NCBI GenBank assembly: GCA_015488775.1
Contig: WFNF01000041.1
Location: 1 to 64,000 of the forward strand
Source of the DNA: Helicobacteraceae bacterium
Lineage (GTDB): Bacteria > Campylobacterota > Campylobacteria > Campylobacterales > Sulfurimonadaceae
Reading direction: 5' to 3'
DNA length: 64,000 nucleotides
The notes beneath the pieces are model-generated. The model was given only the letters and a program-made list of their open reading frames with translations. It searched no databases and was not told the origin of the DNA. Numbering within the stretch: position 1 is the first letter of the stretch; every line of letters starts with the position of its first letter. The translations under genes and the position numbers were made by a program. Of the stretch, positions 57,318-60,926 are shown piece after piece.

Positions 57318-57341
57318 AAAGAAGATAAAGATATCTTCTTT
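57318..57341. terminator. Bidirectional terminator between convergent genes
   Basis: AAAGAAGATA-AAGA-TATCTTCTTT is a 10-bp perfect stem with a 4-nt loop between the chemoreceptor stop (57312) and the convergent gene's stop at 57341, with T-runs on both strands. Confidence 0.75.
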
Positions 57342-58135
57342 TAGTACCTAACCTTAACCTCATAAGGTTCTTGAATATATTCCCATTTTAAACACTCTTC
57401 GTTAGAGTATTTCATGCCTGATGCCATGTCATCTTCGTCATTTGATTTCATTCCCCATCTTGCACATTTTTTTACAGTTTTGTACTTGGTAATGGTTTTT
57501 GTTCTTACTTTAGTTTTATGGTGCATAGATCTTTTAGATGGGAGCATAAAAACTGAGTTCTTTATTTTTGAGGTAGATATATAAGTAAGTTTAAAATTGT
57601 CTGCACTTATTAGGTAGTAACCTGGTTCAACTTCAAATAAACTGCTCATTAACATTTCAGTGTTTGGAATGATGGTTAAAGTATCTGCCATCTGTTTCAT
57701 CGCTCTAGTTACTTTTTTGTCTTTTGTAACTAAAACATCTGCTCTTTGGATGATGTCATCTTCATCTTTCATCTCAATTACCCATTTTTCAGCTTTAATT
57801 CCAGCAACTCTAGTAGATCCACCACGCTCAACAACATTTATATAAGGTGCTATAGTGTTTTGTGCACCCATCATAGCGCCAAAAGCACCCATCATCATCT
57901 TCATCTGATCAAGGTCAACTATCTCTAAATGCCCGTCATCATAAGATACTATATATGTTTTTTTACCTATAACATAGATATCGCTTTTATCACCATTGTC
58001 ATACATAGTTAAGCGTATGTGTGAACTGTCTTTGTATTGAAACTTTAAAGCCTCTTGCCCATCAGCATCAAATTTTAAAGTTATATCTGCATTTAGACTA
58101 AGTGCAAAAAGCACCAAAAGTAGTAGTTTTTTCAT
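57341..58135 (-). CDS. Periplasmic protein, unknown (weakly DUF4412-like)
   Basis: The 264 residues have a Sec signal (MKKLLLLVLFALSLNADI). The first 190 mature residues form a beta-rich domain with IRLTMYDNGDKSDIYVIGKKTYIVSYDDGHLEIVDLDQM, a Met-rich segment (MKMMMGAFGAMMGA, about 81-94) and RVAGIKAEKWVIE, resembling DUF4412-type proteins that read a bound ligand; this match is weak. The tail is basic and holds two Cys (KKCARWGMKSN, EECLKW). The Met-rich run could bind copper or another soft metal; this is inference. Confidence 0.65.
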   Translation of the reverse strand: MKKLLLLVLFALSLNADITLKFDADGQEALKFQYKDSSHIRLTMYDNGDKSDIYVIGKKTYIVSYDDGHLEIVDLDQMKMMMGAFGAMMGAQNTIAPYINVVERGGSTRVAGIKAEKWVIEMKDEDDIIQRADVLVTKDKKVTRAMKQMADTLTIIPNTEMLMSSLFEVEPGYYLISADNFKLTYISTSKIKNSVFMLPSKRSMHHKTKVRTKTITKYKTVKKCARWGMKSNDEDDMASGMKYSNEECLKWEYIQEPYEVKVRY

Positions 58136-58188: not shown

Positions 58189-58911
58189 TTATTTATAAAT
58201 ATTGTCAGGTTTGAGTTGTGCTAAAACATCAAAACTCACTGTCATATTTGATACATTTGTACTAGGATTATCTATACTAAAGTTACCAACTAGATGTATA
58301 TCATTATCAACTTTTTGAGCAAGTGTTATCTCTATATCAAAACTTGAAAAATAATCTATGCTAGATATATCTTTAAATGAATGCATAAATAGACCATCAG
58401 CTGTGTAAGTACCAGTTGCAGGAGTGTTAACAGGAAAACTATTTAATACAAAGTTAAGATAACCCTTAACACTAGAACCATTTCTAAATCTTACACCATC
58501 TTCTAAACCAGTATAAGTTAAAATATCTATAGAGTCTGTTCTTATCTCAATCTGTGGATCAAATGAGTGTAGATGATTTGTATCTATTGTTTCACTATAA
58601 GAGTTTACAGAAACATTTGTTTCTATCCCAGCTGAAGTTACACTAATATTGAAATCACCAGTTTTGTTATAAATATATTTATCTTTATTTATCTCATATA
58701 TAAGTGTTTTACCATCTGCACTTATATCATAAGGTGAGTTAGTACCTTTTGTATCATCTTTTTTATTTGTATCTACACTTTTGTTTGTATCATCTGCTTT
58801 TTGTTTATCATCACCTGAAGTGCCTGTTTGTGCTGGTGTTGTTGTACTCTCGCAAGCAAACATGAAACCTACGATTGCTAAGCCTAGCATTACTTTAAAT
58901 AACTTTTTCAT
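58189..58911 (-). CDS. Lipoprotein preceded by the 11-bp tandem repeat
   Basis: The 240 residues start with a lipoprotein signal (AIVGFMFAC, Cys 20), then a low-complexity Thr/Asp/Lys linker (about 21-57) and a beta-rich domain of about 180 residues with no recognised family. A strong GTAGGAGA ribosome site lies 6-7 bp before the ATG. Two direct ACATTGCAAAA units lie 44-65 bp upstream of the start, just where a regulator would contact RNA polymerase; the same pair occurs at the adjacent kinase/regulator locus, so this lipoprotein is a likely target of that system. It might be an effector or a co-sensor. Confidence 0.75.
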   Translation of the reverse strand: MKKLFKVMLGLAIVGFMFACESTTTPAQTGTSGDDKQKADDTNKSVDTNKKDDTKGTNSPYDISADGKTLIYEINKDKYIYNKTGDFNISVTSAGIETNVSVNSYSETIDTNHLHSFDPQIEIRTDSIDILTYTGLEDGVRFRNGSSVKGYLNFVLNSFPVNTPATGTYTADGLFMHSFKDISSIDYFSSFDIEITLAQKVDNDIHLVGNFSIDNPSTNVSNMTVSFDVLAQLKPDNIYK

Positions 58912-58954
58912 TATTTATCTCCTACTAATAAATTTAAATAAGTATGCCAAAAAA

Positions 58955-58976
58955 ACATTGCAAAAACATTGCAAAA
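58955..58976. promoter_or_regulatory. Tandem 11-bp regulator site in front of the lipoprotein gene
   Basis: Two exact, abutting copies of ACATTGCAAAA (58955-58965, 58966-58976), period 11 bp or one helical turn, the spacing used by OmpR-type response regulators. It overlaps the foot of the kinase terminator. Confidence 0.6.
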
Positions 58977-59006
58977 TTAAATCAGACGTTTTGTCTGATT
59001 TAATTT
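58974..59006 (-). terminator. Terminator of the histidine kinase gene
   Basis: AAATTAAATCAGAC-GTTTT-GTCTGATTTAATTT is a 14-bp perfect stem with a 5-nt loop, 4 bp after the kinase stop; on the minus strand it is followed by TTTTGC. Confidence 0.8.
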
Positions 59007-59010
59007 TAGA

Positions 59011-60807
59011 CTATATATCTATAGATAGTATGTACTCACAAGACTCTTCTGTATGCATAACAATTTGTGCATTTAACTGATCAACAGCTAGAGTTTTTAT
59101 TAGGGAGATACCAAGTGCATCATCTCTTATATTGTTTATATCAAAACCATCACCTGAATCTTTATATGAGAGTACATAAGTACCTTTTACATGGTTTAGA
59201 TATATTTTGATTAAGTTGTTTTTATCTTTTAAAGCGTACTTTATGGAGTTTGATATCATCTCATTTACTATAATACCGATGTAAACAGCCTCTCTTAGAG
59301 GTATAAACGCATATATATCTAGTTCAAATTTACACTCTTTTTCTATAAGTAGTGTTTCTTCAAACTCCTCTACAAGTTCACTTATATACTCATCCATGTC
59401 AACAAGCTCTAAATCACCTTTTTGGTATAGTATCTCATGTGTTTTTGAAATCGCACGGATTCTCCCCTCTAAATCATCAAAACTTTTTGACTCCTCTAAA
59501 CATTTTGATTTTACTTTTTGCATCCTTATAAGAGATATGATGAGTTGTAAGTTGTTTTTAGTTCTATGGTGTAACTCTTTGAAAAGTGTTTGTTTCGAGT
59601 CAAGTGCATGTTGTAACTCTTTTGTTTTTAACTCTATCTCTTTTTTGATTTTTGATTCAGAGTTTTGAAGTGTACTCATAAGTAGTTGATCACTTTTTTT
59701 CTTTTCACTTTGAAGTATGATATACCTATCTGTAAAAGCTAGAGATAAGATAAGTGCTTCTATCGCAGTTAAGTACAAGATAAGGTTTGGCATTTTGTAC
59801 ATTACACTTATAAGCCCAAGAGCATCCATTATAATGGTTGTGTACCCAACTACAAGCATCAACCATGCAAGAGCGTAAAATCTAGCTTGTTTGTAACCTT
59901 TTAGATAAACATAAACCCCAGTAAAGGTGTTGAAAAAAACAAATAGTAAGCCAGTTAATAAACCAGCTTCACTTAGATAAAACCAAGGTGTACCAAAAAG
60001 TGGAACTTCAATTATAGCTAGTGCAATAAAAACTTTATACACCACATCTAAGCGTGGAAAGTTTTTTTGTGTATGTAAAAATCTTCTAGCATAAAGAGAA
60101 GCAGAGAGGTACATTAAACCTATTTGCATAATCCAAGTTGAGTGGAAAAAATCAACTACACTAGGTGGAAAAAATAGAGCTATTATACTTACATAAGATG
60201 CTTGTTGAAGTAGCACTGCTGCAATATAAATCACATAATAAAGGTATGATTTATCTTTTGTGTAAAAGTAAATCAATACATTATAAAACATTAAAGATAT
60301 GATAAAACCAAAAACAAAAATAATTTTAATAATATTTGATATGCTTTTATCTATAAAATTGATAGAATTTTTTAGATGAAGTGAAAATCTTGAAGTTGTT
60401 TTGTGGTTTGTAATTTTAAGATAATAATCTTGAGTTTTTTTAATCTCTAAAACATAGGTTGGATCTAAAGTACTTTGAGAAAGATTTGGGCTTCTAAGTC
60501 TTGTAGTAATTATTTTACCATCTTCATTGTATAAAACAACATTTTCAAAAATTAGATTTTCCATCTCAAGATATCTGTGTATGGTGTTGTTTGTATCATT
60601 TATTAAAGGTATTTTAACCCAGATGTCACCTTTTTTTACTATGCCTAAGTTTGTATATGTTGTGTTTATCTCTTGAAATTTATCTATATTTTTGATGGTA
60701 TTAAAATCTGAAGAGTTTAAATCAATATAGATTTGTGTTTTAGGGTTTATATTTTCATTAGCTAAAAGCGAGGTGATCATAATTAAGATTAAAATAAATA
60801 TTTTCAT
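59011..60807 (-). CDS. 7TMR-DISM sensor histidine kinase
   Basis: The frame is open up to 60873, but the ATG at 60807 is preferred because it opens a signal peptide (MKIFILILIMITSLLAN) and leaves the 11-bp repeat upstream; no good ribosome site marks any start. The 598-residue product has a periplasmic 7TMR-DISMED2-like domain (about 25-165), seven membrane helices (about 165-365), a coiled coil, a HisKA_2-type phosphoacceptor (ELHHRTKNNLQLIISLIRMQ, about 410-430) and an ATPase domain (VNEMISNSIKYAL, SGDGFD, ALGISLI). 7TMR-DISM domains are thought to sense carbohydrates or other small ligands. It is divergent from an OmpR-type regulator, its evident partner. Confidence 0.9.
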   Translation of the reverse strand: MKIFILILIMITSLLANENINPKTQIYIDLNSSDFNTIKNIDKFQEINTTYTNLGIVKKGDIWVKIPLINDTNNTIHRYLEMENLIFENVVLYNEDGKIITTRLRSPNLSQSTLDPTYVLEIKKTQDYYLKITNHKTTSRFSLHLKNSINFIDKSISNIIKIIFVFGFIISLMFYNVLIYFYTKDKSYLYYVIYIAAVLLQQASYVSIIALFFPPSVVDFFHSTWIMQIGLMYLSASLYARRFLHTQKNFPRLDVVYKVFIALAIIEVPLFGTPWFYLSEAGLLTGLLFVFFNTFTGVYVYLKGYKQARFYALAWLMLVVGYTTIIMDALGLISVMYKMPNLILYLTAIEALILSLAFTDRYIILQSEKKKSDQLLMSTLQNSESKIKKEIELKTKELQHALDSKQTLFKELHHRTKNNLQLIISLIRMQKVKSKCLEESKSFDDLEGRIRAISKTHEILYQKGDLELVDMDEYISELVEEFEETLLIEKECKFELDIYAFIPLREAVYIGIIVNEMISNSIKYALKDKNNLIKIYLNHVKGTYVLSYKDSGDGFDINNIRDDALGISLIKTLAVDQLNAQIVMHTEESCEYILSIDI

Positions 60808-60827
60808 AAGTTTAGTATACATATAAA

Positions 60828-60849
60828 ACATTGCAAAAACATTGCATAA
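60828..60849. promoter_or_regulatory. Tandem 11-bp regulator site between kinase and response regulator
   Basis: ACATTGCAAAA (60828-60838) is followed directly by ACATTGCATAA (60839-60849), one mismatch from a perfect pair. It is the same site, in the same orientation, as at 58955 and lies 21 bp upstream of the preferred kinase start, suggesting autoregulation. Confidence 0.6.
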
Positions 60850-60898: not shown

Positions 60899-60926
60899 GG
60901 GCACCTTTAAAAACTTAGAGGTGCCC
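60899..60926 (+). promoter_or_regulatory. Leader hairpin of the response regulator gene
   Basis: GGGCACCT and AGGTGCCC form a perfect 8-bp GC-rich stem, extendable by two pairs, with an inner loop of about 8 nt. It ends 18 bp before the ATG at 60945. There is no T-run, so a 5' stabilising or translational role is more likely than termination. Confidence 0.5.

Follow-up and report, generated by a model that had tools for sequence, protein, structure and literature searches.

PhyK is the HWE/HisKA_2 kinase of the general stress response in Alphaproteobacteria, and known 7TMR-DISM receptors of the SagS and RetS type are hybrid kinases that serve other pathways. The pho box, a well-described operator, consists of two 7-bp direct repeats within 22 bp and substitutes for the −35 element (PMC4971064). 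Campylobacter promoters show a periodic A/T pattern and have no clear −35 (PMC3656092). Here we compare with these systems a kinase-regulator pair found in the window, that is, the whole 64,000-nucleotide stretch of DNA analysed (Table 1). Our analysis makes it likely that nine promoters, mostly of surface lipoprotein genes, are activated by an OmpR/PhoB-type regulator paired with a 7TMR-DISM/HisKA_2 kinase, and that a 22-bp direct-repeat box acts as operator.

Table 1. Features of the kinase-regulator locus, in window coordinates
Feature	Coordinates	Strand	Remarks
264-aa exported protein, behind the 240-aa lipoprotein gene, no known family	57341..58135	-	
Predicted lipoprotein of 240 aa, first gene downstream of box 1; lipobox at FAC, without known domain	58189..58911	-	
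−10-like hexamer CATACT, 8 nt after box 1	58941..58946	-	
Putative regulator box 1, TTTTGCAATGTTTTTGCAATGT	58955..58976	-	Predicted promoter of the 240-aa lipoprotein gene; 43 bits
Intrinsic-terminator-like hairpin ending the kinase transcript, abuts box 1	58972..59008	-	
Sensor kinase, 7TMR-DISMED2 + 7TMR-DISM_7TM + HisKA_2/HWE-type core	59011..60807	-	Domain profiles
−10-like hexamer TATACT, 8 nt after box 2	60814..60819	-	
Putative regulator box 2, TTATGCAATGTTTTTGCAATGT	60828..60849	-	Predicted kinase promoter, faces away from the regulator gene; 40.5 bits
Response regulator, receiver + OmpR/PhoB-type winged helix (Trans_reg_C), 224 aa	60945..61619	+	

The kinase exceeded the cut-offs for the 7TMR-DISM seven-transmembrane domain (114.8 bits) and the DISMED domain (31.1 bits), which identifies it as a 7TMR-DISM receptor; these domains suggest a ligand outside the cytoplasm. 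Its core matched HisKA_2 (73.8 bits) and was also above the cut-off for HWE_HK. The HHR.KNN motif, in which H412/H413, K416, N417 and N418 are invariant, agrees with a HisKA_2 dimerisation/phosphoacceptor domain. The regulator matched Response_reg (76.8 bits), with the phospho-acceptor D53 invariant in 8 homologues, and its winged helix matched Trans_reg_C (44.3 bits against a cut-off of 26.2). Over its full length it also matched the solved regulators DrrD, KdpE, MtrA and others. The genome contains 41 matches to the regulator, so response-regulator paralogues are many. Homologues of the kinase and regulator adjoin one another in relatives, and from this adjacency in several genomes we infer phosphotransfer from the kinase to the neighbouring regulator.

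The initial annotation had reported a two-unit direct repeat with an 11-bp period at two places in the window, and both copies were recovered (boxes 1 and 2; Table 1). Read along the window, they are tandem pairs of ACATTGCAWAA. The two 11-mers of box 1 are identical, and the second unit of box 2 differs by a single A-to-T change. In the reading direction of the minus-strand genes, it becomes TTWTGCAATGT-TTTTGCAATGT. Apart from these two pairs, the 64-kb window contains no perfect 11-bp tandem made of four-letter units. Single ACATTGCAWAA half-sites were not enriched in the window (12 vs 7.9 expected, ≤1 mismatch), and the signal is therefore the pair.

We scanned the whole A/T-rich genome (2.7 Mb, 170 contigs, 95% complete) and found nine copies of the 22-mer at ≤3 mismatches, compared to 0 copies of a reversed-pattern control. 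A first-order Markov model gave expectations per 2.7 Mb of 1e-5 exact, 6e-4 one-mismatch and 0.23 three-mismatch copies; the chance expectation of the box is far below one per genome. Read toward the gene, each of the nine boxes is TTTTGCAATGT-TTTTGCAATGT or a near copy, with an 8-bp half-site, TTGCAATG, recurring at a period of 11 bp. A sequence-only model built from the nine boxes, with columns that include the −10, scored them at 36–43 bits and the next candidate at 13 bits. These scores close the set at nine in the assembled part of the genome, and the model scan of this genome yielded no further degenerate boxes above noise. The locus had initially been read as a self-contained regulon. 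This reading did not hold, as seven of the nine boxes lie elsewhere in the genome, before other, mostly lipoprotein, genes.

All nine boxes were followed shortly downstream by a same-strand gene. The genome scan was also used to check whether the motif is common away from promoters, and no copy lay off a promoter position. A −10-like hexamer stood exactly 8 nt after the 22-mer at every site (TATACT at four sites; CATACT, AATACT, TAGAAT, TATAAT and TACACT at one each). The nine sites thus have the architecture of pho-box-like class II promoters, in which a direct-repeat box replaces the −35 at a fixed distance from the −10. Sites in relatives were searched with the geometry of box, gap and −10 built in. 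Evidence on spacing that is free of this bias comes from the set in this genome, which was found by the repeat alone, and from hits of the model trained on it in the nearest relative (G012), although these partly presuppose the spacing because the model includes −10 columns.

At box 1, the terminator-like hairpin runs into the box, so the 240-aa lipoprotein gene is probably a separate transcription unit with its own promoter. At box 2, the −10-like hexamer stops 6 nt short of the kinase ATG (60807), which suggests that transcription starts at or beside the ATG and that the kinase mRNA is leaderless. Because the regulator gene is on the plus strand, divergent from the kinase gene, box 2 is directed toward the kinase gene, not toward the regulator gene. 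The proposal that the regulator controls its own kinase and the adjacent lipoprotein gene agrees with a box at a promoter-like position before both; it does not extend to the regulator gene's own promoter, toward which no box was found. A strong hairpin of 12 pairs (6 G-C) at 60899-60926 lies between box 2 and the regulator ATG. It is presumed to fall in the 5' leader of the regulator mRNA, where it might be an attenuator, or a terminator of upstream transcription.

The fixed spacing argues for activation. The same regulator could instead use the boxes as a repressor, blocking RNA polymerase at the −35 until a signal frees it, and we regard this as unlikely. The box does overlap the promoter region, and many Campylobacterota promoters need no −35 and might fire without an activator (PMC3656092). 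However, a repressor has no need of fixed spacing, whereas the distance to the −10 is invariant in the nine sites and recurs in relatives, as contact with sigma requires. The head-to-tail tandem and its distance also match the activating pho box (PMC4971064). From these features we infer activation rather than repression. An ECF sigma promoter was considered on general grounds and rejected, since the upstream element reads as a 22-bp dimer site and the −10 belongs to the sigma-70 type.

The nine box genes comprise seven predicted lipoproteins (5 called by a strict lipobox rule and 2 by eye), one exported outer-membrane-type protein of about 460 aa, and the kinase; lipoprotein calls throughout follow a pattern rule. 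Besides the 240-aa protein, the box-driven lipoproteins measure 1411, 497, 309, 1257, 189 and at least 434 aa. Domains among the targets are Big_9/PKD, Lcl_C, FG-GAP, and collagen with DUF7151 and Kelch, and the targets are presumably exposed at the cell surface. Across all genomes, 29 of 40 box genes carried a strict lipobox, compared to 5 of 42 window ORFs (P = 2e-8, Fisher). None of the other lipoprotein genes in the window has a box; the regulon therefore takes in only some of such genes.

We observed that the nearest relative pairs a lipoprotein gene with a homologue of the 264-aa protein (46% identical) in the same way; the lipoprotein at the equivalent place there had no significant similarity to the 240-aa lipoprotein. 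The exported family of the 264-aa protein stands beside the kinase-regulator pair in four genomes (the window; L264, L273, L276). No family was found for it in Pfam, in NCBIfam or by profile against the PDB. Its AlphaFold model (pLDDT 83) had LolA/MucB-type proteins as best Foldseek matches (E about 0.01 or worse, TM about 0.2), a weak indication that it may resemble LolA-type lipoprotein carriers in fold. At the other end of the locus, a convergent gene (L016, 1627-4164; window 61626 to past the end) encodes an 845-aa M6-type protease lipoprotein with a HELGH zinc-protease-type motif and atrophied Ig domains. It has no box in the 240 nt upstream.

The closest regulators in named relatives belong to Sulfurimonas sp., Sulfurovum sp. 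and 'Helicobacteraceae' metagenome assemblies, which suggests a place for this genome within or close to Sulfurimonadaceae. We surveyed 228 genomes of the family, and the count given here covers 209 of them, with the 19 others left out. Among the matches listed, exact boxes occurred in at least nine genomes (this one included), all of them within the 14 of the 209 that have a close regulator homologue (hypergeometric P about 1e-12, an optimistic value because the genomes are kin by descent). Where a relative has a close homologue of the regulator, it carries either the same box or a variant with GCAACG, and in most the box lies just behind the regulator stop codon, ahead of a lipoprotein gene. 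What usually recurs in relatives is therefore a box or variant next to the kinase-regulator pair, upstream of a lipoprotein gene. A box before the kinase gene was seen at no other locus compared than the one in this genome.

In the nearest relative, the model trained on this genome alone found 12 boxes, the lowest at 24 bits vs 16 for the next candidate. These precede mainly lipoproteins of similar kinds; a Kelch/DUF7151 lipoprotein is a box target in both genomes. Lipoproteins of the 'QKG[AP]F' type, a linked group, account for ten box genes in eight genomes. Outside the family, the box (≤1 mismatch) was found in only seven of about 270 genomes of the order. In two of these seven (L290, L295), retrieved by a search for the box only, it adjoins a regulator of the same type, and the L290 box precedes a QKGPF lipoprotein.

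The type of box followed the regulator. One regulator clade (97/99 support) is accompanied by half-sites of the form TTGCAATG (GCAATG boxes), and the remaining box-bearing regulators by TTGCAACG-like half-sites (GCAACG boxes). The recognition helix and wing differ in parallel (TRRAL...HS[LIF]GY vs mostly TRR[SG]L...[EQY]GY); the switch of box type is a single change on the regulator tree, so its match with regulator residues is one event without an independent replicate. The initial annotation had tied the repeat to the adjacent OmpR-type regulator, and co-occurrence and co-divergence across genomes make it very probable that this regulator has its site in the box.

Several further loci were noted. 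A diverged candidate box, TTTAGCACATTTTTAGCACA, with unchanged −10 spacing, precedes a lipoprotein gene at L119 6959 (-), in a genome with a more distantly related regulator. No conserved box of the GCAAYG pattern was found near Sulfurovum-type regulators. A second box type, TTGCAACANACTTGCAACACTAAA, with a −10 at equal distance, occurs at L243-L256, L261 and L262 (G101, G124, G125, G225, G052, G109 and others), with up to about 10 or more copies per genome ahead of response-regulator, PAS-domain and chemotaxis-type genes; these boxes are probably the regulon of a different OmpR-type regulator. The nine promoters do not belong to the regulon of the TTGCAACANACTTGCAACA boxes of other genomes, whose targets are response-regulator, PAS and chemotaxis-type genes, as the targets here are mainly lipoproteins.

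Contig C27 of the same genome carries a paralogous kinase-regulator pair (L049, 1221-4480) with a regulator 46% identical to the one studied and a lipoprotein gene next to it. A second regulon of this paralogue, with box AAACA-N-TTTTAGGACG, was tried and rejected when a genome search returned only its own locus and one three-mismatch match. We consider it quite improbable that the nine boxes belong to another DNA-binding protein, such as this paralogue, with the kinase-regulator pair merely one of its targets. Any of the many paralogues in the genome could share the box, and the one on C27 also stands ahead of a lipoprotein gene; however, the C27 locus has no TTGCAATG box and only a weak, different candidate, AAACACTTTTAGGACG-N9-TATGAT. 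In several genera the box co-occurs with and adjoins homologues of the regulator studied here, and the regulator tree predicts the type of box.

It is more improbable still that the repeats are left over from a dispersed repeat, or from a mobile promoter cassette copied ahead of genes, with no dedicated regulator. The 22-mer is near-identical at nine scattered places, but a comparison of the flanks at these sites found nothing common beyond the −10 and some T-richness, and no shared flank or target-site duplication was seen. In relatives, the geometry stays constant across boxes that differ in linker bases and half-sites, and copies track the presence of the regulator between genomes. Chance assembly of short A/T-rich repeats in an A/T-rich genome, where half-sites alone are not enriched, has a negligible probability and is refuted by the genome scan, which found nine copies, all promoter-positioned, against an expectation of 0.23 (≤3 mismatches).

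The preferred reading is activation by the adjacent regulator. In the proposed circuit, the membrane kinase would sense a signal at the cell envelope and phosphorylate the OmpR/PhoB-type regulator, two protomers of which would occupy the two 8-bp half-sites head to tail with an 11-bp period. Because the box is at the −35 place, a fixed 8 nt from the −10, the bound dimer would recruit sigma-70 RNA polymerase as a PhoB-like class II activator. Campylobacter promoters have no clear −35 (PMC3656092), so the activator would supply the upstream contact in such promoters. Nine promoters would be switched on, including that of the kinase, giving positive feedback; since the kinase promoters of the compared relatives have no box, this feedback may be peculiar to this genome.

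Many Campylobacterota two-component systems have no known target. The analysis proposes an exact operator, and a defined set of nine promoters as regulon, for a hitherto uncharacterised kinase-regulator pair in a free-living member of the group. On this prediction, a single signal would coordinate a coat of surface lipoproteins of the Kelch, collagen, PKD and Ig types. The box, the fixed gap and the −10 provide a simple target finder for any relative, and the shift of the box with the regulator clade offers a natural case of regulator/operator co-divergence. A broader idea, which we hold only tentatively and think rather doubtful, is that Campylobacterota have a family of such kinase-regulator pairs, each with a diverged box and lipoprotein set. 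Paralogous insulated switches (e.g. C41, C27) would then change the lipoprotein coat according to the surface signal, and the co-transcribed carrier-like protein may aid loading of the coat.

The predicted regulon is new, none such being described in the literature searched, and of a known type. The pho box of E. coli and Pseudomonas is alike in having two 7–8-bp direct repeats, an 11-bp period, A/T-rich linkers and a length of 22 bp, and in replacing the −35 near the −10 (PMC4971064). PhoB, which binds it, is a receiver and winged-helix regulator of the same architecture as the one here. Unlike in the Pho system, the half-site is TTGCAATG rather than the pho-box repeat, the kinase is of 7TMR-DISM/HisKA_2 type rather than PhoR-like, and the targets are lipoproteins rather than phosphate genes; the regulator scores 67.3 bits against a PhoB equivalog cut-off of 296.2, which places it outside Pho. 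The kinase core matches HisKA_2 and HWE_HK and aligns with PhyK, but it scores 76 bits where the PhyK cut-off is 750, and it is paired with a DNA-binding regulator of OmpR/PhoB type instead of an anti-anti-sigma regulator. With receptors of the SagS and RetS type the kinase shares the same membrane domain and its extracytoplasmic DISMED domain. The Cpx and BfmRS envelope stress systems are likewise two-component systems tied to lipoproteins (PMC6538781, PMC11784087). They respond to faults in lipoprotein trafficking or biogenesis, whereas the genes predicted to be controlled here are themselves mainly lipoprotein genes.
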